A stretch of 56,969 nt of DNA from an uncultured bacterium (GTDB lineage: Bacteria; Patescibacteriota; Minisyncoccia; Moranbacterales; GWC2-37-73), in contig CAISKQ010000024.1 of NCBI GenBank assembly GCA_903885965.1, positions 1 to 56,969 of the forward strand, read 5' to 3'. The notes under the pieces are model-generated. The model had not been told where the DNA came from. It saw only the letters and a list, made by a program, of their open reading frames with translations, and did not search any database. Shown here one piece after another: positions 3,724-15,476 of the stretch (positions are counted from its first letter, which is position 1; each line of letters begins with the position of its first letter). A program made the translations under genes and the position numbers.

Positions 3724-5100
3724 CTATCTCCCATAATCATCTTCATAGTGCACGATGTCATCTTCTTCCAAATAATCTCCAGTTTGCACTTCAATGATTT
3801 CCAAATTTATTTCACCTGGATTTGACAAACGGTGTTTGAAAGTTGCCGGGATGAAAGTACTTTCGCCTTCATGCAAAGTCAACGTATTTTCACCATTAAC
3901 CACTTGAGCGGTTCCCTTGACCACCACCCAATGCTCAGAACGACGAGCGTGCGACTGCAAACTCAAAGAAGAGTTGGGATAAACTGTGATTTTTTTCACT
4001 TTATGCCCAGGGTCCTCAATCAGCACTTCATATTTTCCCCAAGGTCGCTGCACTTCAACGTTATGCTGAATTTCTTTATAATTATTTTCCTTGAGATAAT
4101 TGACAACTTTTTTCACATCTTCACTGCGACCTCTTTTGTGAATCAAGATACAGTCATTGTTCTCCACCACCACCAAATCCTGCACGCCAATCGTGGTGAT
4201 CAACCGATTCGTCGAAGAATGCACAAAAACATTTTTACTATCAATCAAGATATGCCTCTCTTGCAAAGCATCTTTGGCAGTCAACACATCAGCCAAGGCA
4301 TCAAAAGATCCAATATCGCTCCAACCAAAATCACCTTCAAAAACAACAACGTCTTTGGATTTTTCTGAAATGGACGTATCAATTGATTCAATTTCAAGTT
4401 GTTTAAAATCTTCAACAAAATCAGCATAGTCTTTCTCGAAGGCGGCAAAAAGTTTTGGCGCATGTTTTTCAAGTTGCTGGGCAAACGTTTGCGCATTGAA
4501 AATGTACATGCCGGAATTCCAAACATATTGACCAGATTGCAGATACTGCTGCGCAATTTCTTTGTTGGGTTTTTCCACGAAAGCATCCACCAAAAAATAG
4601 CCATCTTCTTTTTTTCCTTTTTTGATGTAGCCAAAACCTGTTTCAGGTGCCAAGGGTGTGATCCCAATTGTCCCAATATGATCGCCAACTTTTTTCATTG
4701 CATCCTTCACAATTTGAACAAAAATTTCCGGCTTGGAAATATAGTGATCAGCTGGCAAAAAAATCACCGACTCATTATTGTCGATTTTAATTTTTTCCAC
4801 CAGATATTTCACTCCCAAAGCAATCGCTGGAGCAGTATTAAGTGAAGCAGGCTCAATAATAATCTGGCTTTCTTTGATTTTTGGATGAATATCCTTAATT
4901 TGATTAAAGACATTAAAATAATTTTCTTCATTGGTGACCAAGAAAATATTCTCGGTTGGCATGATTTTTTGCACCCGCAAAAAAGTCTCCTGTAAAAGAG
5001 AATACTCATTATAGAGCTTCAGAAATTGTTTTGGAAAGTTTTTGCGCGAAAGCGGCCAAAGACGAGTGCCAGAGCCACCGCAGAGGATAATTGAATACAT
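3724..5100 (-). CDS. manC: Mannose-1-phosphate guanylyltransferase / mannose-6-phosphate isomerase type II
   Basis: This 458-residue protein has an N-terminal nucleotidyltransferase domain with the GGSGTRLWPLSR signature at residues 8-19 and FPKQF just after it. A C-terminal cupin follows (residues ~345-455) with the phosphomannose-isomerase-like segments RPWGKYE, SLQSHARRSEHWVV and EGESTFIP. The enzyme makes GDP-mannose from mannose-1-phosphate and GTP; the cupin part may interconvert mannose-6-phosphate and fructose-6-phosphate. It would supply activated mannose to the glycosyltransferases on both sides. Length is that of bifunctional ManC/AlgA/XanB proteins. Confidence 0.95.
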   Translation of the reverse strand: MYSIILCGGSGTRLWPLSRKNFPKQFLKLYNEYSLLQETFLRVQKIMPTENIFLVTNEENYFNVFNQIKDIHPKIKESQIIIEPASLNTAPAIALGVKYLVEKIKIDNNESVIFLPADHYISKPEIFVQIVKDAMKKVGDHIGTIGITPLAPETGFGYIKKGKKEDGYFLVDAFVEKPNKEIAQQYLQSGQYVWNSGMYIFNAQTFAQQLEKHAPKLFAAFEKDYADFVEDFKQLEIESIDTSISEKSKDVVVFEGDFGWSDIGSFDALADVLTAKDALQERHILIDSKNVFVHSSTNRLITTIGVQDLVVVENNDCILIHKRGRSEDVKKVVNYLKENNYKEIQHNVEVQRPWGKYEVLIEDPGHKVKKITVYPNSSLSLQSHARRSEHWVVVKGTAQVVNGENTLTLHEGESTFIPATFKHRLSNPGEINLEIIEVQTGDYLEEDDIVHYEDDYGR

Positions 5101-5175: not shown

Positions 5176-8007
5176 TTAATTATTTGGCGCTGCTTGTTTA
5201 AAAATATCAATATATTTTTTTGTTTCATCGAGATAATAAGATCCAAACTGCCTTGTTGGTTCAATTGTGGATCCTTCAAAAAACTCATTCCAGGTTGCGA
5301 TTAATACATAATCAGCTTTATTTTTAAACACCTGCTGCCAAGTCCAATCATAAATGCTAGAATTGTTAACCATGGCAGGAATTTGAAAACCAAGTTTGCC
5401 GCGAATAACAGTATCTTGATACATTGGATTAACCGCTATGAACACTGGCTTATTCATGCTTCGATCTCTTTGCGCCTGATCCTGTAATTGTTGTTCCCAT
5501 ACATCCATAATTTTTGTTGGACTTACAACATTGCGCCAGTTTACCCACGTATTTGACAAACTATAAAAAAATTCATTATCGAAAACTCTCACATTAGTAA
5601 ATGTATCACTACGAATCACTTGGCTATCATTTTTTGGAATTGGTGAAGCATATGTACTTGCCAAATAGACAGGACCAACTTTATTTTCTACATCGTACCT
5701 AATTGAAGTCCAAAAATCAACATATTCATCAAGAAAAGCTTGCTTATAATCCCGTTCAGAAATAATACTTCCATTAAAATGAGCCAGGTCCTCAGGATAT
5801 TGAGCAATGAGATCTTCCAGTCCATTAATAGGAACACCCCAAGTTTCTGAAATTGCAACATAGGGATTCTCTGGATTTATATTCTCATACTGCTTAATTA
5901 TTCTTCCAGCTAATTGCTCCTTTGATTTCCGATCCCAACTTGGATCAAACCAATGTCCATCATATACAAAAACAACCGACTTTCCGTCAATTTTAAGTGT
6001 AGCGGGGCTTTTATAAGTTGCAGCTATAGCACCCAGAAGATATGTCTTTACAGCCTCTTGCGCTCCAGGGTTAATTGCAAAGCCAAGCATTCTATCACCC
6101 TTTTGATCAATTCCATGTAAGTTCTGATCGGAAAGAGCATCTCCCGTTTCTACGAGTGGACTGTAATATAATCCCAATTTTTCAGCATAACTAATAAAGG
6201 AAAGGTATCGCTCTCTATCATATATATGATACGAAAGTACCGCAAAATCTATTCCCGCTGCCTTCATCTGTTTAATATGCTGAACATAATATGAGTTTTT
6301 AGAAGTATAATAACCCTCTTGCGGGGTAAGTGTCGTTTTACTCCAAGCCGAATCTGCATTCTCCGAATAATGACTTGGATTATTCCACCAAAGATAATAA
6401 AATGTTCCGACCTTTGGATTGAGTGGGAATGCAGGCTTTGCTTTTACATCAACAAGGTCAACCAACTTAAGCGCATTTGTCGACTTAAGATAAGCATTCG
6501 CGAGTGGAATCTGGGTTGCGCAAAGAAGCAACATCGCAAAGATAACTACCACCTGAAGAAGGGTTAATTTTATTTTTGAGAAACCCTCCAATAGCGCATC
6601 TTTTATTTCCAAACTTGACTGAAAGGTTTTAATCAAACCAATACAGACAACAATCCCAGAGATTAAAATCAGTGGCAACAACATAATATATGTCAGAGTT
6701 ACTGGTGCATTATAATATGTCCATAAAGAATTTGGATATGCATACAATGGCAATTTTGGAATCAAGTGACTAAAATAGTAAACCAGGTAATTGGTTGAGG
6801 CGCCGAAAAATTTTGACGCAATTTCAAATGGCAAGAATGTCAAAAAATGAAATCCCAAAACAAAACCGGCAATTAGGACACTAACTGTTGCAATCTCTTC
6901 AAACAAAACAAGAAACCATCTTTTAAATAAAACGTGCTCTTTTTTAGGAAAATGTGTAAGCAAAACAAGAAGACCAATAAGTACAACGTAATATTGTTCA
7001 TTGACAACTTTATTGAAAAGCAAAATACTCGTGTAAATTAAAACAATTACCGTGAGAAGATTGCTTTCCTTTCCCTTAACATATGCAAATGAAAATAAAT
7101 TAAATAAGATTATGCAAACCATCATTAACAACCCCCCTATGCTGATGAGTGTTGAAAAATTTAAACTATAAATATAGCCAACATAATCAAGAATTCCTGA
7201 CATTGCAATTCCTTGCGGAGGGCGCGCAATATGCATAATCAAGTTTTGGCTTAAAAAGCCTTGCGGGCTGCTAATAAAAAAGGGAATATCGATAATTAAA
7301 GTAGTAACAAGAAAAGAAATTATAAATTGAATCCTCTTGTTTGTCTGAGGTACGTTTTCCCAGAAGAAAAGGAAAATTGCTGGAATGAAAAAAAGTGGAA
7401 AAAGCTTTACCTGCGGTGCCAAAGAAAGAAAAATTCCTGCCAAAATAGCACTCCTTGACCTAACACTTAAAAGAAAAAGTAATAAGAAATTTACAATCCA
7501 AATATCAAACATTCCCCATGCCGAACTTATCCAAATTAAAAGTGGATTAAAGAGAATAAGCAAGGCAGCCCGTGTGGCTAATTTTTTCCCATATTTATCC
7601 AAAAATATAATCATGAGGAAGGCACAAAGCAGATCGCCAAGTATAAAAGGCAGTTTTATAGAAACATTCGTCAAAAGAGGTAACAAATTTGCTGAAATGT
7701 GAGAAAAAGCCACCAACGCATACGAGGTCGTAAACATTAAAAGAGGCAAGGGTGGATATCCATACCATTGTTCAGTCATTGGTCTATCACTGTCAGGATA
7801 AATGCTGGGATCGTTATATTGAACTGTTTGATATGGAGTGACTCCATGAAGCATATTCTTTGCACTTTCAGCGAAAACAAAACCATCCCAATCATGAGAG
7901 AGAAAAAATGCAAATATTATACGAATGACAAACGCGACAATGAATAGTGCAATCCAGGTCTTCTTACTATACGCTTTGTGCTGTGTTAAATTGTTTTTTT
8001 TACTCAT
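5176..8007 (-). CDS. GT-C membrane glycosyltransferase fused to a GH99-like domain
   Basis: The protein has 943 residues. Residues ~17-510 are hydrophobic with about a dozen membrane segments and an early extracytoplasmic acidic motif (HDWDGF, 38-43), as in GT-C mannosyl- and glucosyl-transferases using polyprenyl-phosphate sugars. After the last membrane segment, residues ~530-940 form a soluble domain starting VGTFYYLWWNNP and containing GIDFAVLSYH, VFVYDGHW and TWNEFFEGSTIEP. These resemble glycoside hydrolase family 99 and related WbsX-like domains. GH99 enzymes are endo-alpha-mannosidases or mannanases, which fits the nearby manC. The frame is continuous. The start overlaps the preceding gene by 8 bp, so translation is probably coupled. 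The family assignments are from sequence impression only. Confidence 0.75.
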   Translation of the reverse strand: MSKKNNLTQHKAYSKKTWIALFIVAFVIRIIFAFFLSHDWDGFVFAESAKNMLHGVTPYQTVQYNDPSIYPDSDRPMTEQWYGYPPLPLLMFTTSYALVAFSHISANLLPLLTNVSIKLPFILGDLLCAFLMIIFLDKYGKKLATRAALLILFNPLLIWISSAWGMFDIWIVNFLLLFLLSVRSRSAILAGIFLSLAPQVKLFPLFFIPAIFLFFWENVPQTNKRIQFIISFLVTTLIIDIPFFISSPQGFLSQNLIMHIARPPQGIAMSGILDYVGYIYSLNFSTLISIGGLLMMVCIILFNLFSFAYVKGKESNLLTVIVLIYTSILLFNKVVNEQYYVVLIGLLVLLTHFPKKEHVLFKRWFLVLFEEIATVSVLIAGFVLGFHFLTFLPFEIASKFFGASTNYLVYYFSHLIPKLPLYAYPNSLWTYYNAPVTLTYIMLLPLILISGIVVCIGLIKTFQSSLEIKDALLEGFSKIKLTLLQVVVIFAMLLLCATQIPLANAYLKSTNALKLVDLVDVKAKPAFPLNPKVGTFYYLWWNNPSHYSENADSAWSKTTLTPQEGYYTSKNSYYVQHIKQMKAAGIDFAVLSYHIYDRERYLSFISYAEKLGLYYSPLVETGDALSDQNLHGIDQKGDRMLGFAINPGAQEAVKTYLLGAIAATYKSPATLKIDGKSVVFVYDGHWFDPSWDRKSKEQLAGRIIKQYENINPENPYVAISETWGVPINGLEDLIAQYPEDLAHFNGSIISERDYKQAFLDEYVDFWTSIRYDVENKVGPVYLASTYASPIPKNDSQVIRSDTFTNVRVFDNEFFYSLSNTWVNWRNVVSPTKIMDVWEQQLQDQAQRDRSMNKPVFIAVNPMYQDTVIRGKLGFQIPAMVNNSSIYDWTWQQVFKNKADYVLIATWNEFFEGSTIEPTRQFGSYYLDETKKYIDIFKQAAPNN

Positions 8008-8581
8008 GAGAAATGATGGACTTTATTAATTTATAACTAATAGTAAGAATTAAAATAACTGCCAATATAATCATCGGTCCCGTTAAATAGTTGAATTTCC
8101 TCAATGATACCGTCGGAATATTAACAATTGATTGGATTGATTGTTTTGCAGGTAAAGTTTCTGGGACTTGAAAGGTGGCAATAAGTTCCGAATCTGTTAT
8201 TACTCCAGAATTATCAGTTAGCGACTGTGATAAAGTATAATCGCCAGCAGGAATTGATGTCTCAAAAGGATGAATCCAATATCCACTAGCATCCGTGCTT
8301 TCCTCCATTGATTGTTTAACTTCACCTTGCGATAAAATAAGATTAATTTTAACATTATTAACAGTATAGCCAAAAATAATTGGCTTATTTGTTCTTATGG
8401 TAACTTTCTCTTGAGGATTTTCAATTTGTGTTCCGTCAATATATATTTGTGCATTTTGTTTTATCACAGAAGAACCAGATTCATAAAGTCCGAAAGCTTT
8501 CACGTATTGCGTTTCGCAAGAAATAAAACCAAAAATAAAAATCGATACCTTCAGTAAAACTAGGATTTTTTGTTTATTCAT
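8000..8581 (-). CDS. Small exported, membrane-anchored protein of unknown function
   Basis: I place the start at the ATG at 8581 (MNKQKILVLL), which begins a signal-peptide-like stretch; an in-frame ATG at 8608 would add nine polar residues and overlap the upstream gene. From the 8581 start the protein has 193 residues. The middle (~40-145) looks like a beta-sandwich (YIDGTQIENP, IRTNKPIIFGYT, AGDYTLSQS), and a C-terminal membrane helix ends in a basic tail (TISYKLIKSII). The likely topology is an outside-facing domain anchored at the C-terminus. It is tightly linked to the GT2-GtrA gene before it and the GT-C/GH99 gene after it, so a role in the same glycan pathway is inferred. I do not recognise the family. 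Confidence 0.65.
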   Translation of the reverse strand: MNKQKILVLLKVSIFIFGFISCETQYVKAFGLYESGSSVIKQNAQIYIDGTQIENPQEKVTIRTNKPIIFGYTVNNVKINLILSQGEVKQSMEESTDASGYWIHPFETSIPAGDYTLSQSLTDNSGVITDSELIATFQVPETLPAKQSIQSIVNIPTVSLRKFNYLTGPMIILAVILILTISYKLIKSIISHE

Positions 8582-8594
8582 AAAATAAAAATAT

Positions 8595-9317
8595 TTATTG
8601 CAGTTCATTATCGATTGAAAAAAAATTCTCTTGCGACAAAACCTCTCTTTTATTTGCAGCTAATGACCACACTAAAGATGATGAAATAATGTAATTTAAT
8701 AATGTCGCTAAGAGAATTCCAAACATCGCTGCAAACAAATAATACAAACCAAACATCAAAGCGGCACGATATATAACAAAGTTAAATACAATTACAACCA
8801 TTGATAACAAACAATACTTAAGAAGTTGCTTAATGCGCTCAATGTGACCATCTGTTATCCTGTCGCTGTAAGTTATTGAACTATTAAGCACAAAGTTACT
8901 CAAAATTGAGAGTAAAATTGCAATCAGCCAGGCAGTAAATTGTCCGAATCCATAAAATTCAACAAGTGCATAGAGCGTTCCTATATTTATTATAACACCA
9001 GTCAAGCCAACGAAGCAAAATTTTATAAAACGACCAGCATGCGGTAATGTGCAAAATAAAAACCACAAGTGTTTCAAGAACTCAATACCTTGTCGCAGAG
9101 ATGCCTTACTGACATCATTTTCCCTTTTCAAAAATTTATACGGGACATCTCTCACGCTTTCATACTTCGCACGCATCAATATTTCGACAAGAATTTTAAA
9201 GCCCCTGGGTTCAAAATCAACAGCTTGGATAATTTCTTTTTTAAATAGAAAAAATCCACCGAGAGGATCGGTCGTTTTTCTTGTTTGAGAAAAAATAATT
9301 TGAGTAAAATATTTCAT
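8595..9317 (-). CDS. GT2-GtrA glycosyltransferase, C-terminal part (out of frame with its N-terminal part)
   Basis: The 240 residues continue a dolichol-phosphate-mannose-synthase-like GT2 domain (TTDPLGGFFLFKK, PRGFKILVEIL, DVPYKF), followed from about residue 95 by a four-helix GtrA-type membrane domain (FCFVGLTGVIINIGTLYALVEF). The true N-terminus lies at 9359-9769. The two parts are in different frames because of the 11-base G tract at 9385-9395. Changing the tract by one base (to 12) restores one reading frame of about 390 residues. The normal family role is transfer of a sugar from a nucleotide donor to polyprenyl phosphate, with GtrA helping movement across the membrane. The ATG at 9317 is an internal methionine rather than a natural start. 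Confidence 0.82.
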   Translation of the reverse strand: MKYFTQIIFSQTRKTTDPLGGFFLFKKEIIQAVDFEPRGFKILVEILMRAKYESVRDVPYKFLKRENDVSKASLRQGIEFLKHLWFLFCTLPHAGRFIKFCFVGLTGVIINIGTLYALVEFYGFGQFTAWLIAILLSILSNFVLNSSITYSDRITDGHIERIKQLLKYCLLSMVVIVFNFVIYRAALMFGLYYLFAAMFGILLATLLNYIISSSLVWSLAANKREVLSQENFFSIDNELQ

Positions 9318-9358
9318 CCCGAGTGAAACACATCTTCGATAAACACCGTAAAATGTCT

Positions 9359-9769
9359 TTAGACTTCCAAGACCTTCAGCACTGCCCCCCCCCCCATATA
9401 TCGAGTCGCTACAACAATATCTGCATTATGGCCAATTGCGCTTTCTAATAAATCTGGAATTTTCTGCGGAGGATGTTGCAAATCGGAATCCATGCAACAT
9501 ATGTATTTTCCTCTTGCATCATTAAATCCTGCGATAAAAGCAGTCGCAAGACCAGTTCTATCTTTAGGCTGTCTATGCATTAAACGAATTTTGTTGTTTT
9601 TAGACATCTGCATTTTAATAATATCGGGAGTTTCATCATTACTATCGTCCACGAACAAAATCTCATACTCAATGTTAGAATCAAATGCATCATTAATAGA
9701 TGCCAGCAAGGGAAGAACATTTCCTGCTTCGTTGTAAGTCGGCAGAATGATTGTTAGGATAGGTTCCAT
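9359..9769 (-). CDS. GT2 glycosyltransferase, N-terminal part (frameshifted at a G tract)
   Basis: Starting at the ATG at 9769 (MEPILTIILPTYNEAGN), this is the nucleotide-sugar half of a DPM1-like GT2 enzyme. It shows the family start PTYNEAGN, the acidic EILFVDDSND, the segment RTGLATAFIAGF and the catalytic DxD in CCMDSDLQHPP. The frame ends after RYMGGG with an out-of-frame tail, because the G tract brings an early stop at 9359. With one more G the frame would read on into SAEGLGSLK and the domain at 8595-9317. An upstream in-frame ATG at 9862 is possible but would add an unlikely hydrophobic leader. As sequenced the product would lack the membrane part. Confidence 0.82.
   Translation of the reverse strand: MEPILTIILPTYNEAGNVLPLLASINDAFDSNIEYEILFVDDSNDETPDIIKMQMSKNNKIRLMHRQPKDRTGLATAFIAGFNDARGKYICCMDSDLQHPPQKIPDLLESAIGHNADIVVATRYMGGGAVLKVLEV
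9385..9395 (-). repeat. Run of 11 G on the coding strand inside the GT2-GtrA gene (slippage site)
   Basis: Eleven consecutive C on the plus strand lie within the GT2 coding region right after the RYM codons. With 11 G the downstream frame is lost; 9, 12 or 15 would keep it. This is the classic layout of a slipped-strand phase-variation tract, although a homopolymer miscount in the assembly gives the same picture. Confidence 0.75.
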
Positions 9770-9896: not shown

Positions 9897-9925
9897 AATT
9901 TAACATATATAAAATGCCTTGTCAA
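9897..9925 (-). promoter_or_regulatory. Promoter of the GT2-GtrA / GT-C operon
   Basis: On the minus strand a perfect TTGACA, a 17-bp spacer and TAAATT with an extended -10 (TGT before it) lie about 120 bp upstream of the ATG at 9769. The genes from 9769 down to 5176 are so tightly packed that they are probably one transcript from here. Confidence 0.65.
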
Positions 9926-10041: not shown

Positions 10042-11646
10042 TTACTTTTTCCCATTTTTGTTCAGATTTTTAAGCAAATCCGCAATTTGCGACTGCGTGA
10101 GTGCAAGCCAAGGGGAACTATCCGAATTAGCCTCAGATGCAGCTGGACTCGCTCCTTGATTCCACCATTTCGCCTGAAAAGGCACGCCCTCAAACAAAAC
10201 TCGATCGCCACCATTATAAACCACTGCTCCAGCCCAGTCGGGATAGGTTCCTCTTGGTAAGGTTGGCTGCTCAATGGGTTTTTCTCCAGGCAAAACAGGT
10301 CCGACTAATTTCCAGGGCGTTTCATATGATTGCAAAACTGGATTGTCAGGCAAATCATTTTTTGTCCACCATTTTGCTTCGTACACATTGCCATGCCAAA
10401 CGACTTTCACTTCTTTTGGGTATGCTCCCGTGACTTGCCAGATCTGATATGGACTTTGCTTTGGATCATCAATGATTGAAATATTGCTCTTAGCATCAGC
10501 TATTGTTAAAATACCCGCGCTCTGCTCAAGACCTCCGTCAAAACCATTATGTAAGGCTTGGGCAAAACCAGATTTAGTTGTCTTGACCCCACTACACGAA
10601 TCAGAAACAACTTTCACATCAACGTAGTTTTCGCCACAAGGAATATCTCGATTGGCTGACCACATTGACATCCGACCAATTCCTTGACTAAGAGCAAATG
10701 AATTCAGACCCTGAGCATCTTCTAATGTGAAAATTTCATCAGCCAAATCATTTTGCCCAATCATGGGGGTTGCTCCAATTTTTCGCCATAATGTTTCACT
10801 GCTCAAATTTATCTTGGCTTTTTGATAGAGAATCCCCAATTGACGATGGGTTTCAATCAAAGCTTGCTTTGAGGCTTCGAGCATTGATTGATTTTGATCA
10901 CGACTAGCACCATAGTCCATGGTCATTCCATTTACGCCCGCTAAATCAACTCCGCTAGAAAGCATGCTAGTAACCGCATCGGTACCTTGAATTGTCATAC
11001 CTTGCGGACTCACTGGCAGCGTCAACCAAACAGCTAGATTTTTTCCATTATTGCGATAATCTTTTTGAAGTTGTGCGATTGCATTTGCACGACGCGTTGC
11101 TGCCTCAGCATTTAAACTCTGATTCTCAAGATCCAAATCGATAGTATCAATATTATAACGTTCAATGACCGTTTTATATGCATTTAAAAGTTTATTAGGA
11201 TCACTACAACCGAGTGCTAATTCGGAATTCAACGCTCCGCCAAAAGACACGGCTATTTTTCCGCCTTGTTGTTGCAAACGAGCAATTCGACGATCAAGAT
11301 CAAGCCCCACTGATGCCTCGTCAAAAGTGTAATAAGTTCCCCAAGTTGGGATGCAAGAATCGGAAGCAGAGGAAACAATAAAAGAAAGTACCGCATCTGG
11401 CGTTGCGGTCGCTCCTTGTTGTTCAAAAGTGTAGATAGGCATCGAGGTGACATCGACATAAGCCGCAAACCAAGGTTGATATTTAGGAGTAACAGCCTCT
11501 ACTGCCTTTTGCTTTAATTCTTTTCGATAAAAAGCCACGCCAAACATAATCCCTTCTAACATTAAAACAACTAGAAGAATCCGCCAAGGGGATAGTTTCC
11601 TTTTTGGCTCATTATTATCAACTTTTAGGCTAGTTTTCTTTAACAT
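10042..11646 (-). CDS. Membrane-anchored GH18 chitinase-like protein with two CBM5/12-type modules
   Basis: This 534-residue protein has a single membrane anchor (residues ~22-39), then a GH18 barrel with the catalytic signature DTIDLDLE at 167-174, matching DxxDxDxE with the acid/base Glu174 present. Two short aromatic-rich modules follow at ~401-448 and ~468-516 (YEAKWWTKN, FQAKWWNQG), typical of CBM5/12 chitin-binding modules. GH18 enzymes cut beta-1,4-linked GlcNAc polymers. The layout predicts an enzyme tethered outside the cytoplasmic membrane. The start overlaps the end of the processive GT2 gene by 17 bp, so the two are probably co-translated and act on the same glycan. The substrate is inferred from the family. 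Confidence 0.88.
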   Translation of the reverse strand: MLKKTSLKVDNNEPKRKLSPWRILLVVLMLEGIMFGVAFYRKELKQKAVEAVTPKYQPWFAAYVDVTSMPIYTFEQQGATATPDAVLSFIVSSASDSCIPTWGTYYTFDEASVGLDLDRRIARLQQQGGKIAVSFGGALNSELALGCSDPNKLLNAYKTVIERYNIDTIDLDLENQSLNAEAATRRANAIAQLQKDYRNNGKNLAVWLTLPVSPQGMTIQGTDAVTSMLSSGVDLAGVNGMTMDYGASRDQNQSMLEASKQALIETHRQLGILYQKAKINLSSETLWRKIGATPMIGQNDLADEIFTLEDAQGLNSFALSQGIGRMSMWSANRDIPCGENYVDVKVVSDSCSGVKTTKSGFAQALHNGFDGGLEQSAGILTIADAKSNISIIDDPKQSPYQIWQVTGAYPKEVKVVWHGNVYEAKWWTKNDLPDNPVLQSYETPWKLVGPVLPGEKPIEQPTLPRGTYPDWAGAVVYNGGDRVLFEGVPFQAKWWNQGASPAASEANSDSSPWLALTQSQIADLLKNLNKNGKK

Positions 11647-13963
11647 ATGTATTATTTTCTTTTAACATTATTTCACTTACAAACTCATGCGGTGCGATTT
11701 TATCAATTTCTCCATGATACAGCACACTTCTCCAATTAAATCCTAAACCAATTTTAACTGGTTTTTGAGCTACTTTTGGATGGACATCAACATAAAATAT
11801 AGTTATAAAACCTAGCCAAATGTCAGCAAGCATGTTTTTGATTCCAATATAGGAAAAAATAGCCCAAGTCGCAGCAATGGAATTGAAACCAGCAAATGCC
11901 GCATTTCCCCAATTTTCCCCTCTAATATTACGCCACATGGTGAAAAGTGAAAAACCCACAATAAAAATCGGTGCAAGCAAATACGTCACGGATACCGCTG
12001 TTCGATTTTTAACTTTAGGTGTTCGAGCAAATGGTGTTTTTTTGGCTGTCAAGGCTTGCTCGAGCGACTTAAGAGTTCCCGCAATATTCACTGGAAGCAA
12101 TATTAAATTGAAACCATAAATTCGAATAATATCACTGTAATTATAGCGGCAATATTTTAAATCAATAGCCATGGAAATAAAGTAAGGAACTGCAGCCAAT
12201 AATATCAGCGGACTTAATAATCGCCCATCATAAGGATATGCAAGAAGAAATATCAGCCCAAGATTTGACCAAGCGATAGAGGCCATATAGTTCAGTCTGA
12301 TTATAAATTCAATCTTTGATATAGGCTTGCCTTGATTTTTGCGCTCACGAATCATTTTCAAGAGCCTCGGAAGAATCAGCAATCCACCATTTGCCCAACG
12401 TCGACGTTGAATAATCAAAGAACCAAAGTCTGGAGGCGTTGCGCTATAGCTCAAGCGCTCAGGGTAGTTCACTAATCTCCAACCATGAAGTGCCAAATCG
12501 ATACTCGACTCAGTGTCTTCAATAACTGTATGATCTTGAATAAATCTTTTTATTTCAAATCCACCAACCCATTCTTTTTCAACGATGTCTTCGAGCGCAC
12601 ATTTTCGAATTACAGCATTAGCTCCAACCCAAAAAGTTGCATTATAGTGACTCATTCCTTGGTGAATAATATGCTGAATATCAGTCGTAGCTCCAGACAA
12701 ACGCTCAAGACGTGTAGCAGAACCACGGAATGAGGAATAGGGTGTTTGCGTAACCGCAACATCTACGTTGTCAGGTTGTTGCAAAAAATAAACCAACCGC
12801 AAGCAATATTCACGCAACAAAATAGAATCAGCATCCAACGTAAGCACGAACTCACTGTCTGGAATAATCATATTCATACTCTTTTGTTCTTTTGTTGGTA
12901 CCAATAAAATCCCATCTGATGTTTGTTCTTGACGATACGAATCTCCCATAAGCCCAAGATAAGAATTTAGATTCATTGCCTTATTTGCTTCATGCGATAA
13001 TGAAGCATACTTTTTTCTTTCAAAAAAACTCAACTCTGCGCTAAATATCCAAACAAGCCGACGATAGAGTTGCGCCATCCGATCAGATGAAAGCTGCGCA
13101 CCTTCTTTATTTGAAGCAATTAATGCTTCCGCAACTAAAAGTAAGTCCCTGGCAAGTTCTCGAAACACCTGATCTGCAAAAAATACATCAACATGATCTT
13201 CAATCACCTCTTTTGCTGCTAAATTATTCAGCCACTCTGCTGCCCAAGTATAGTTTGAAATTATTTCCAAAATAGCTTCTTTGAATTTTTCATCTTTATT
13301 ATCCTGTTGTTCAAACCTTATCAATGCTTGACTGAAACGTTCGTACGGCTGAGATAAAAGTGCTTCTATTTCCTGACTAAGTGCCCTGGTCTTTTCAAGT
13401 CGAGCCATGCTTTCAGAATCAGCACTCATTTTTGAAGCATCATCATCCAGCAAGAGCGCTATTTTAACATTAGGATATTCCTGTAATGCTGCGGATAAGA
13501 TTGTTTTGCGAATTACCTGTGTTTCTTCATCATAGGAAGGAATCAAGACAGTAATCGACGGTTGATGAGTGGAAAAATGTTTATCAAGCAGGGCTCGAGG
13601 AGTGCGAACATGTTTGCTAAAACGTTGCAGTGCCCCTTGCCTAGCAATCAAATAAACCAATGCCGAGAATGTTAAGAACGTATTGATAATCAAATATCCA
13701 AAACTTTCCATAATAAACTGATAGCTTTGGGGGCCATCAAAAAGCTGGCGAATGAAAACCGAAATAACATACATGGCCCAGAATAAAACCGTTAGTACAA
13801 TTGAAAAACGACTGAAAGCGACTATACGGCTTGAAGGCTTCTCATGCATGTTAGACAGTGGCAATGTCTGACTCTCAGTTCCCCACTGTCTTTTTTGGGA
13901 CAGTCTTTTTCGAGGTATTTGCGAACCGGGGTATTTTTTTTCTAGAGAAAATTTATTTGTCAT
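11630..13963 (-). CDS. Processive family 2 glycosyltransferase (cellulose/chitin/hyaluronan-synthase type)
   Basis: This 777-residue membrane protein has two N-terminal helices (~52-108), a cytoplasmic GT2 domain and several C-terminal helices. Catalytic elements are all present: ITVLIPSYDEE (137-147), LLDDDAS (171-177), the DAD of LTLDADS (377-379), IEDTES (481-486, the TED-like base) and QRRRW (519-523). About 180 mostly helical residues (~185-360) are inserted between the first acidic motif and the DAD, which is unusual for plain cellulose synthases. The family builds and exports a polymer from a UDP- or GDP-sugar. Overlap with the GH18 gene downstream suggests a beta-linked amino-sugar polymer, but the product is not provable here. 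A run of eight G lies ~40 bp upstream of the start. Confidence 0.87.
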   Translation of the reverse strand: MTNKFSLEKKYPGSQIPRKRLSQKRQWGTESQTLPLSNMHEKPSSRIVAFSRFSIVLTVLFWAMYVISVFIRQLFDGPQSYQFIMESFGYLIINTFLTFSALVYLIARQGALQRFSKHVRTPRALLDKHFSTHQPSITVLIPSYDEETQVIRKTILSAALQEYPNVKIALLLDDDASKMSADSESMARLEKTRALSQEIEALLSQPYERFSQALIRFEQQDNKDEKFKEAILEIISNYTWAAEWLNNLAAKEVIEDHVDVFFADQVFRELARDLLLVAEALIASNKEGAQLSSDRMAQLYRRLVWIFSAELSFFERKKYASLSHEANKAMNLNSYLGLMGDSYRQEQTSDGILLVPTKEQKSMNMIIPDSEFVLTLDADSILLREYCLRLVYFLQQPDNVDVAVTQTPYSSFRGSATRLERLSGATTDIQHIIHQGMSHYNATFWVGANAVIRKCALEDIVEKEWVGGFEIKRFIQDHTVIEDTESSIDLALHGWRLVNYPERLSYSATPPDFGSLIIQRRRWANGGLLILPRLLKMIRERKNQGKPISKIEFIIRLNYMASIAWSNLGLIFLLAYPYDGRLLSPLILLAAVPYFISMAIDLKYCRYNYSDIIRIYGFNLILLPVNIAGTLKSLEQALTAKKTPFARTPKVKNRTAVSVTYLLAPIFIVGFSLFTMWRNIRGENWGNAAFAGFNSIAATWAIFSYIGIKNMLADIWLGFITIFYVDVHPKVAQKPVKIGLGFNWRSVLYHGEIDKIAPHEFVSEIMLKENNTYVKEN

Positions 13964-14002: not shown

Positions 14003-14010
14003 CCCCCCCC
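14003..14010 (-). repeat. Run of eight G upstream of the processive GT2 gene
   Basis: Eight consecutive C on the plus strand lie 40 bp before the GT2 start codon, between it and the transposase insertion. I see no clear promoter around it. A G run in this position could change promoter or leader spacing by slippage, but it may equally be incidental. Confidence 0.4.
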
Positions 14011-14057: not shown

Positions 14058-15466
14058 GGGGAACTACATGCAATAGAAGATACAATACATATTGGGATTT
14101 TATCTAAGATGATTGTGAGACGGTTTTTGAGATTTTTTAGATTAAAGTATCTAAAAATGAAGAAATTTCAAAAAGCCTACCAGCTAGAGAAAGATTTTAT
14201 CCTTAATAAAAGACATGGGTTAGAATAGAGTTACTAATCAACTAATCTAACAACCATGTCTTCTACATTAATTCTAATGCCGTATAGAGAAAATTGCAAA
14301 ATGGAGGGAGAAATCCTGACTAAACTTAAAATCGCTAGAATGCATCTAGCTTCTCATGTAAAACAAAAGGAAATTGCCAGGCTGTGGAAGTGCAGTAAAA
14401 ACACTGTAGGGGCCATTATGAAATCTTGCAGGAGCGCCCCTGATGAAGCATTAGCGTATCTAAAAAACACAACGCACATTCCTATTGATGACTTGCCATT
14501 GTTTAATTTTTTGAAGCATGGCAGCAGAAAGCCCAAATCCAATAAAAGATGTTTGCCCAAGACCGCGGAAAAGTTACTCTTGGAAAAACATGACGATTTA
14601 CACTATGGCTTCAAACGAATGTGCAAACATTTGAAAAGAGCAGGCTTTGATGTCGAGGTATATACACCAAGTAAAATCAAAGGGGTTTACAAGCGGAACA
14701 AGCTGGGTATTAAAAAAGTGCGGACAGCTAACGGGGAAAGAAGGGCTCTTTATGATTACGATAAAATTGCAGCCTTTGAATTTTTAAACTACGACACTAA
14801 GAAGGTCACAGATATGCACGCCTTGCCAATGGACATATATCTGAAGTTTAAATTTCAAAAAGATTTACCAATTTATCAATGGACAATTGTGGATGTAAAA
14901 ACTAAAATCAGATTCTTGGCATGGTCTCATTCCTTGAATAGTTTCTTCGGACTTAAGTTTTTAGAATTCGTGATTGTTTGGCTCAGGGCGCACCAGGTGC
15001 AAACTAAAATCAATGTACAATTTGATGGAGGATCAGAATTTTGCAGTGCATCTAAAAAGAAAACAGTAAGCTGGAATCAGCATTTCGAGAAATATGATGT
15101 CTTTGTCTATGATACTGGCGGAGCCAAATGGAAACAAAATATTATTGAACGTACCCATCGCATTGATGATGAAGAATTCTATTGTCCACGCGGAGAATTT
15201 ATTAATTCAAAACAAGATTTCTTAATAGAAGCTCAGGGTTGGATTATCTATTACAATAATCGCATAAGTGATAGCATCGGACTTGAAGGCATTTCACCAA
15301 AAGAAAAGCTACAGGAATTGGGATATACTAATGCTGACGCAATCTGTAATTTTCCTTGTTTTATCCTTGAAGATTACTGGCGACCAATATCTGATTTTTT
15401 TGAGATTGAAAAATCCCAAAATGTATTGACCTATTACCAGGGGAACTACATGCGGGAACTACATGC
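14058..15466 (+). mobile_element. Insertion element with DDE transposase, flanked by a 14-bp direct repeat
   Basis: The transposase gene is bracketed by GGGGAACTACATGC at 14058-14071 and 15440-15453, with a further GGGAACTACATGC directly after at 15454-15466. I find no matching terminal inverted repeat, so the real ends are uncertain; the repeat may be part of the element ends or a duplicated target. The element sits between two genes without breaking either. The 14072-14255 stretch to its left contains no convincing gene. Confidence 0.6.
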
Positions 15467-15476
15467 AGGCAAGTAA
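14256..15476 (+). CDS. DDE (rve-type) transposase
   Basis: The 406-residue protein has an N-terminal helix-turn-helix (residues ~22-57, KEIARLWKCSKNTVGAIM) and a retroviral-integrase-like core. Candidate catalytic residues are Asp180 (LNYDTKKV), Asp257 (QFDGGSEF) and Glu298 (NIIERTHR). The last Asp-Glu spacing is somewhat longer than the usual 35. The C-terminal segment YYNNRISDSIGLEGISPKEKL is typical of IS481/IS3-like enzymes. An alternative start is the methionine at 14301. The frame looks intact, so the element may be active. The last dozen residues are encoded by the flanking direct repeats, which suggests the original C-terminus has been altered. Confidence 0.88.
   Translation: MSSTLILMPYRENCKMEGEILTKLKIARMHLASHVKQKEIARLWKCSKNTVGAIMKSCRSAPDEALAYLKNTTHIPIDDLPLFNFLKHGSRKPKSNKRCLPKTAEKLLLEKHDDLHYGFKRMCKHLKRAGFDVEVYTPSKIKGVYKRNKLGIKKVRTANGERRALYDYDKIAAFEFLNYDTKKVTDMHALPMDIYLKFKFQKDLPIYQWTIVDVKTKIRFLAWSHSLNSFFGLKFLEFVIVWLRAHQVQTKINVQFDGGSEFCSASKKKTVSWNQHFEKYDVFVYDTGGAKWKQNIIERTHRIDDEEFYCPRGEFINSKQDFLIEAQGWIIYYNNRISDSIGLEGISPKEKLQELGYTNADAICNFPCFILEDYWRPISDFFEIEKSQNVLTYYQGNYMRELHAGK

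Follow-up and report, generated by a model that had tools for sequence, protein, structure and literature searches.

A long G tract in a dolichylphosphate mannose synthase-type gene of a Patescibacteria genome: a probable slipped-strand contingency locus

Phase-variable glycosyltransferase genes with poly-G/C tracts are known from Neisseria meningitidis and Campylobacter jejuni, lgtA/lgtC/lgtD, pglA, and wlaN being examples. In Neisseria, a survey of SSRs covers frame switching within genes as well as effects on promoters, and finds homopolymers of at least 8 to be predominantly variable (PMC5084427). For the CPR, the closest case comes from a Gracilibacterium, where slipped-strand mispairing has been discussed for a hypervariable repeat gene (PMC6851277). 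Text searches on phase variation in CPR, Patescibacteria, and Saccharibacteria in the open library, a limited collection in which absence is not proof, brought up no account of tract-based on/off switching. A preliminary description of the present locus had called such variation little described in CPR.

In the window, that is, the whole stretch of 56,969 nucleotides analyzed here, a single GT2-GtrA protein is split over two frames of the minus strand, interrupted solely by 11 consecutive G, which appear as 11 C on the plus strand (Table 1). The upstream part carries the Pfam domain Glycos_transf_2 (PF00535, positions 9392-9769, E 1.6e-28), and the downstream part, whose 266 codons are free of stops, carries GtrA_DPMS_TM (PF04138, positions 8595-9395, E 2e-19). 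The gene, the tract, and the coordinates given in the preliminary description, which had two parts of one GT2-GtrA protein in different frames with the 11-G run as the only break, are thereby confirmed, and its frame arithmetic is reproduced by simulation of the tract length: 9 and 12 G yield one continuous protein of ~390 aa, while 10 and 11 G leave it broken. Other lesions are absent over the ~390 codons of the gene. In the homologues that have no tract, R-Y is followed by a single residue and by GGS or a similar sequence; the consensus length is therefore 9 G, and the 11-G copy is +2. According to the kinship labels, the window genome belongs to the same class as CSMAG_2029 (Ca. Moraniibacteriota), i.e., to the Patescibacteria/CPR.

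Table 1. Positions of the GT2-GtrA gene, its G tract, and neighboring features in the window (L126 is the corresponding locus of CSMAG_2029)
Feature	Position	Strand	Remarks
ManC-type mannose-1-phosphate guanylyltransferase/isomerase gene	3724..5100	minus	GDP-mannose supply
Gene of 943-aa protein, PIG-M-type mannosyltransferase domain and weak GH99/WbsX-like C-terminal match	5176..8007	minus	53% identical to syntenic partner in L126 (944 aa)
Gene of 202-aa membrane protein, downstream of the GT gene	8000..8608	minus	overlaps stop of GT gene; 31% identical to 207-aa protein in same place in L126
GT2-GtrA gene, polyprenyl/dolichyl-phosphate mannose synthase type	8595..9769	minus	ATG 9769, stop 8595-8597; frame broken at G tract
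3' part, other frame	8595..9384	minus	remaining GT2 with Arg144 and Ser148 (Arg131/Ser135 equivalents), acceptor loop, GtrA/DPMS membrane domain
Frame as read with 11 G	9359..9769	minus	truncated 136-aa product; stop 9359-9361
11-G run, putative slippage tract	9385..9395	minus	codes residues directly after Arg123-Tyr124-Met125
5' part	9396..9769	minus	GT2 catalytic domain, DSDLQH motif, Arg123 (Arg117 equivalent)
Putative sigma70-type promoter of GT2-GtrA gene	9897..9925	minus	TTGACA, 17-bp spacer, TAAATT; no G tract
Second, shorter G tract (8 G)	14003..14010	minus	5' leader of CelA-like GT2 gene 11630-13963

The read-through protein aligns with the dolichylphosphate mannose synthase (DPMS) of Pyrococcus furiosus (PDB 5mlz) over residues 5-368 with an E value of 5.5e-63. 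In the 5mlz structure, the lipid phosphate is bound by Ser135 and Arg117 with the assistance of Arg131, and the DADLQH motif binds the metal and the donor (PMC5526996). The alignment gives Ser148, Arg123, and Arg144, respectively, as the equivalents in the window protein, together with the DXD-type motif D94-S-D-L-Q-H99. The tract starts directly past Arg123-Tyr124, with its first G within the Met125 codon, and lies between Arg123 and Arg144, the equivalents of the phosphate-binding arginines. Because of this position, the 136-aa out-of-frame product, which would be devoid of Arg144, Ser148, the acceptor loop, and the membrane domain, should be inactive. The homology and the neighboring ManC gene point to an enzyme of the DPMS type, with putative use of GDP-mannose and polyprenyl phosphate. 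Of the surface glycosyltransferase that had been proposed at first, the glycosyltransferase thus stands, while the homology to 5mlz refines it to a DPMS-type enzyme, an upstream supplier of lipid-linked mannose. Switching of such a supplier would affect every lipid-mannose-dependent step rather than the addition of one sugar.

The neighboring genes suggest a likely pathway from GDP-mannose through polyprenyl-phosphate mannose to a mannosylated surface product, and, with the ManC gene and the PIG-M-type transferase in the same operon, the GT2-GtrA gene may have an effect at the cell surface. The operon of CSMAG_2029 is of the same kind, with the order PMM, GT2-GtrA, 207-aa protein, 944-aa protein, and ManC-like; its 207-aa protein has a weak Ig-like match below the cut-off.

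The preliminary description had proposed a comparison with other genomes of the lineage. Ten full-length GT2-GtrA homologues, including the window copy, are found in the order and class, and eight of them are intact, with a single frame and at most 6 G at the site of the tract (5-6 G in the loop of the intact L158 and L162). The tenth, that of CSMAG_2029 (L126, contig DAOWHY010000025.1), is ~50% identical at the protein level, and its frame is interrupted in the same loop by 8 G. The tract is therefore 11 G long in the window and 8 G long in L126, both 2 mod 3, and absent in the eight others. The relatives are either intact or broken at the tract only; a fixed 11-G tract accompanied by other inactivating changes in all relatives, which would have spoken against phase variation, is not what is seen. 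The CSMAG_2029 sequence searched contains only 3 G tracts of at least 8, and the chance that random placement would bring one within about 60 bp of the site is ~3e-4 (3 x 60 / 600,000), a value that overstates the surprise, as the glycine loop is prone to such runs. The GT2 parts flanking the tract in the window protein are 54-62% and 65-75% identical to the five closest homologues, i.e., approximately as conserved as in the intact homologues, while the GtrA half is 41-48% identical to these five, compared to 55-78% among them. No GT2-GtrA orthologue was found in the other members of the genus. An apparent third tract-bearing case from the class-wide search, G365:C25, was rejected, being the same contig and sequence as L126.

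Expected numbers of homopolymer runs were derived from the base statistics of the window itself. For G/C runs of at least 11, these give ~0.0013 per window and 0.03 per genome, and 3 are observed in the genome; for runs of at least 9, the genome has 11 compared to 0.7 expected, three of them being 11 long. The genome-wide number of G6 words, 126 observed versus 117 from the model, fits the model, which confines the excess to long G runs. The A/T runs of the window reach a maximum of only 8, despite an A+T content of 63%. Genome G041 of the same order is unusually rich in G tracts of at least 8, with 39 overlapping matches in 1.3 Mb, compared to 33 in the window genome. Immediately upstream of the glycan cluster of the window lies a weak IS481-type transposase gene (14256-15476), close to the 8-G tract that begins at 14003. 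The window gave no matches in Rfam or tRNA scans, and an exact-flank search for a second copy in viral contigs found none.

A search for mismatch repair that covered the MutS_V domain gave matches in none of the 6 genomes of the genus, compared to 11 of 14 control genomes. This is the case although a review of the CPR reports that they possess mismatch repair genes (PMC10221324). Long tracts recur elsewhere in the genus, and two sets of orthologous sites differ by one base. The first is a promoter-like element, TTGACA-N9-11-G9-11-TAAAAT, with total spacers of 19-20 (the commonest promoter spacer in these sequences being 17), mostly ahead of proteins that start with MG-x-EDG or similar; one orthologous spacer tract is 11 G long in G000 and 10 G long in G003. 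Such loci are L096:145-176, L100, L093, L107, L112, and L120, and one also occurs in another family of the order (G029). In the paralogue L134, the tract is interrupted and the spacer is 18 long, and a control with the reversed pattern found no tract promoters. The MG-x-EDG proteins have no Pfam match; they have the promoter and the N-terminus in common, and their sequences diverge further on.

The second set consists of Avd-like orthologues in which the conserved start MPENLFSQQ is followed by a poly-C tract. The tract is 9 C long in G000 (L092:3016-3471, C2) and G004 (L110, C27) and 10 C long in G005 (L119:2608-3021, C112); the flanks are conserved, and the 10-C copy puts the conserved start out of frame. 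Altogether, the genus has 22 Avd-like matches, of which 6 carry a tract of C9-C11 (or G9) close to the 5' end, and several of these 6 lie next to a divergent reverse transcriptase; the Avd-like gene of G000 (L092) adjoins an RVT_1 reverse transcriptase. G/C tracts are also found in the 5' region common to a reverse transcriptase and a divergent Avd-like gene, with lengths of 11 at L097:3086-3096 (G000 C22), 11 at L104:1175-1185 (G001 C57), and 9 at L119:5387-5395 (G005 C112). In G001 (L104), the ATG before the tract is now ACG. The L097 tract was considered as gene-breaking and rejected, as it is in frame in both the reverse transcriptase and the Avd-like ORF. Further, a GNAT acetyltransferase gene (L091:2808-3280, G000 C1) is broken by a 9-G run, where 8 would match the intact homologues (G003, G013, and others). 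Two other sites in G000 are possibly foreign or repetitive, namely L101:3094-3642 (C66), with an in-frame 9-G tract in a stretch apparently richer in G+C than the remainder, and L095 (C16), a short contig with GGCCCC/C-run repeats.

On the basis of these sequence comparisons, the GT2-GtrA gene is probably a slipped-strand contingency locus for a DPMS-type enzyme, captured here in what would be its OFF state, and we infer from it length switching within the population, as well as activity of the enzyme, an effect at the cell surface, and a benefit. As G are gained or lost in the tract, the second half of the protein would move into or out of the reading frame. With the frame open (9, 12 ... G), polyprenyl-phosphate mannose would be made and lipid-linked mannose fed to the adjacent PIG-M-type mannosyltransferase. 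With the frame broken (10, 11 ... G), translation would meet a stop a dozen residues past the R-Y motif, and the assembled genome, with 11 G, would represent this state. A slippage switch is the best explanation because two lineages show a parallel break, the gene is otherwise intact, no MutS was detected, and sister tracts differ in length by one base. The phase variation put forward in the preliminary description is accordingly upheld in part: it is the best-supported reading, in view of the G-tract break in CSMAG_2029, the excess of G tracts, the lack of a detectable MutS, and the one-base differences between orthologues. Against it speak the position of the tract in the middle of the gene and its location in a loop whose xGGS sequence predisposes to G runs.

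The main rival is a recent, non-adaptive breakage, in which the G run of the glycine loop grew and slipped by chance in a lineage without mismatch repair and the gene is now being lost. We consider this unlikely. The lack of a MutS match in the genus and the GGS loop, which favors runs of 5-6 G even in the intact L158 and L162, are what such a scenario would call for, and it also draws on the slightly lower conservation of the GtrA half, on the restriction of the gene to one member of the genus, and on the GNAT gene, which is likewise broken at a G tract and has no obvious surface role. It sits poorly, however, with ~390 codons that have no further lesion and with the equivalent break of this gene in a second, distant lineage. 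In addition, the A/T tracts are not similarly lengthened, and long G tracts recur in promoter spacers and Avd 5' ends.

Another rival invokes programmed frameshifting, or slippage during transcription, at the G run, which would set a low level of full-length enzyme from an out-of-frame gene. G runs are slippery, a modest fold of -13 kcal/mol over 64 nt is predicted downstream of the tract in the window, and the 11 and 8 G, both being 2 mod 3, would need the same shift, although two sequences are weak evidence. The corresponding fold in L126 amounts to only -9 kcal/mol, so a strong stimulatory structure is not shared, and the eight full-length homologues that have no tract manage with a single frame. 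The GNAT tract would require the opposite shift, and the Avd tract varies as 9/9/10, which makes this explanation improbable. Least probable of all is an assembly or sequencing error hiding a true tract of 9 or 12 G and a gene that is always on: the locus is known from a single assembly and long G homopolymers are hard for many sequencing platforms, which counts in favor of an error, but the 52 A/T runs of 7-8 inside intact ORFs of the window show that homopolymers do not break the assembly in general, the independent CSMAG_2029 genome (contig name k141_..., in the style of the short-read assembler MEGAHIT) is broken with only 8 G, and an 11-G tract with near-identical flanks has equal length in two species (L097, L104).

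Returning to the slippage switch, a wider version of it may be entertained, toward which we lean slightly less than away: Moranbacteria-like Patescibacteria without mismatch repair might carry poly-G switches genome-wide, acting on lipid-mannose synthesis, on the spacers of the MG-x-EDG promoters, and on the 5' ends of Avd genes beside reverse transcriptases of the type found in diversity-generating retroelements. If true, slippage would switch even the diversifying machinery on and off. Phase variation by tracts is characteristic of bacteria that are forced to vary their surface under attack by hosts or predators, and a life on other microbes is assumed for CPR cells. A switch in the supply of lipid-linked mannose, if true, would offer a concrete and testable handle on how they vary attachment or evade phages and hosts. 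Genes of CPR metagenome-assembled genomes that appear broken at G tracts should not be dismissed as pseudogenes or errors.

Compared to the DPMS of P. furiosus (5mlz), the window protein has the same fusion of GT2 to a GtrA-type membrane domain and conserves the DXD-type motif and the equivalents of Arg117, Arg131, and Ser135; the archaeal gene, however, has no G tract and a single frame, and its enzyme acts with dolichol, while the window protein presumably uses a bacterial polyprenol. The likeness to the poly-G/C genes of Neisseria and Campylobacter lies in a G/C tract of at least 8 in a glycan-synthesis gene, where length shifts the frame, and in the presence of other tracts in promoters. 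Those genes belong to cultured pathogens and add terminal sugars, whereas the present one belongs to the Patescibacteria, would supply lipid-linked mannose, and is known from one assembled length. The Gracilibacterium gene is likewise a CPR case for which slipped-strand mispairing is discussed (PMC6851277), but there a 9-mer coding repeat alters the repeat region, whereas here a mononucleotide tract would turn the gene on or off. The proposed mechanism is thus that of a classic mononucleotide contingency locus, and what would be new is its occurrence in this bacterial group.
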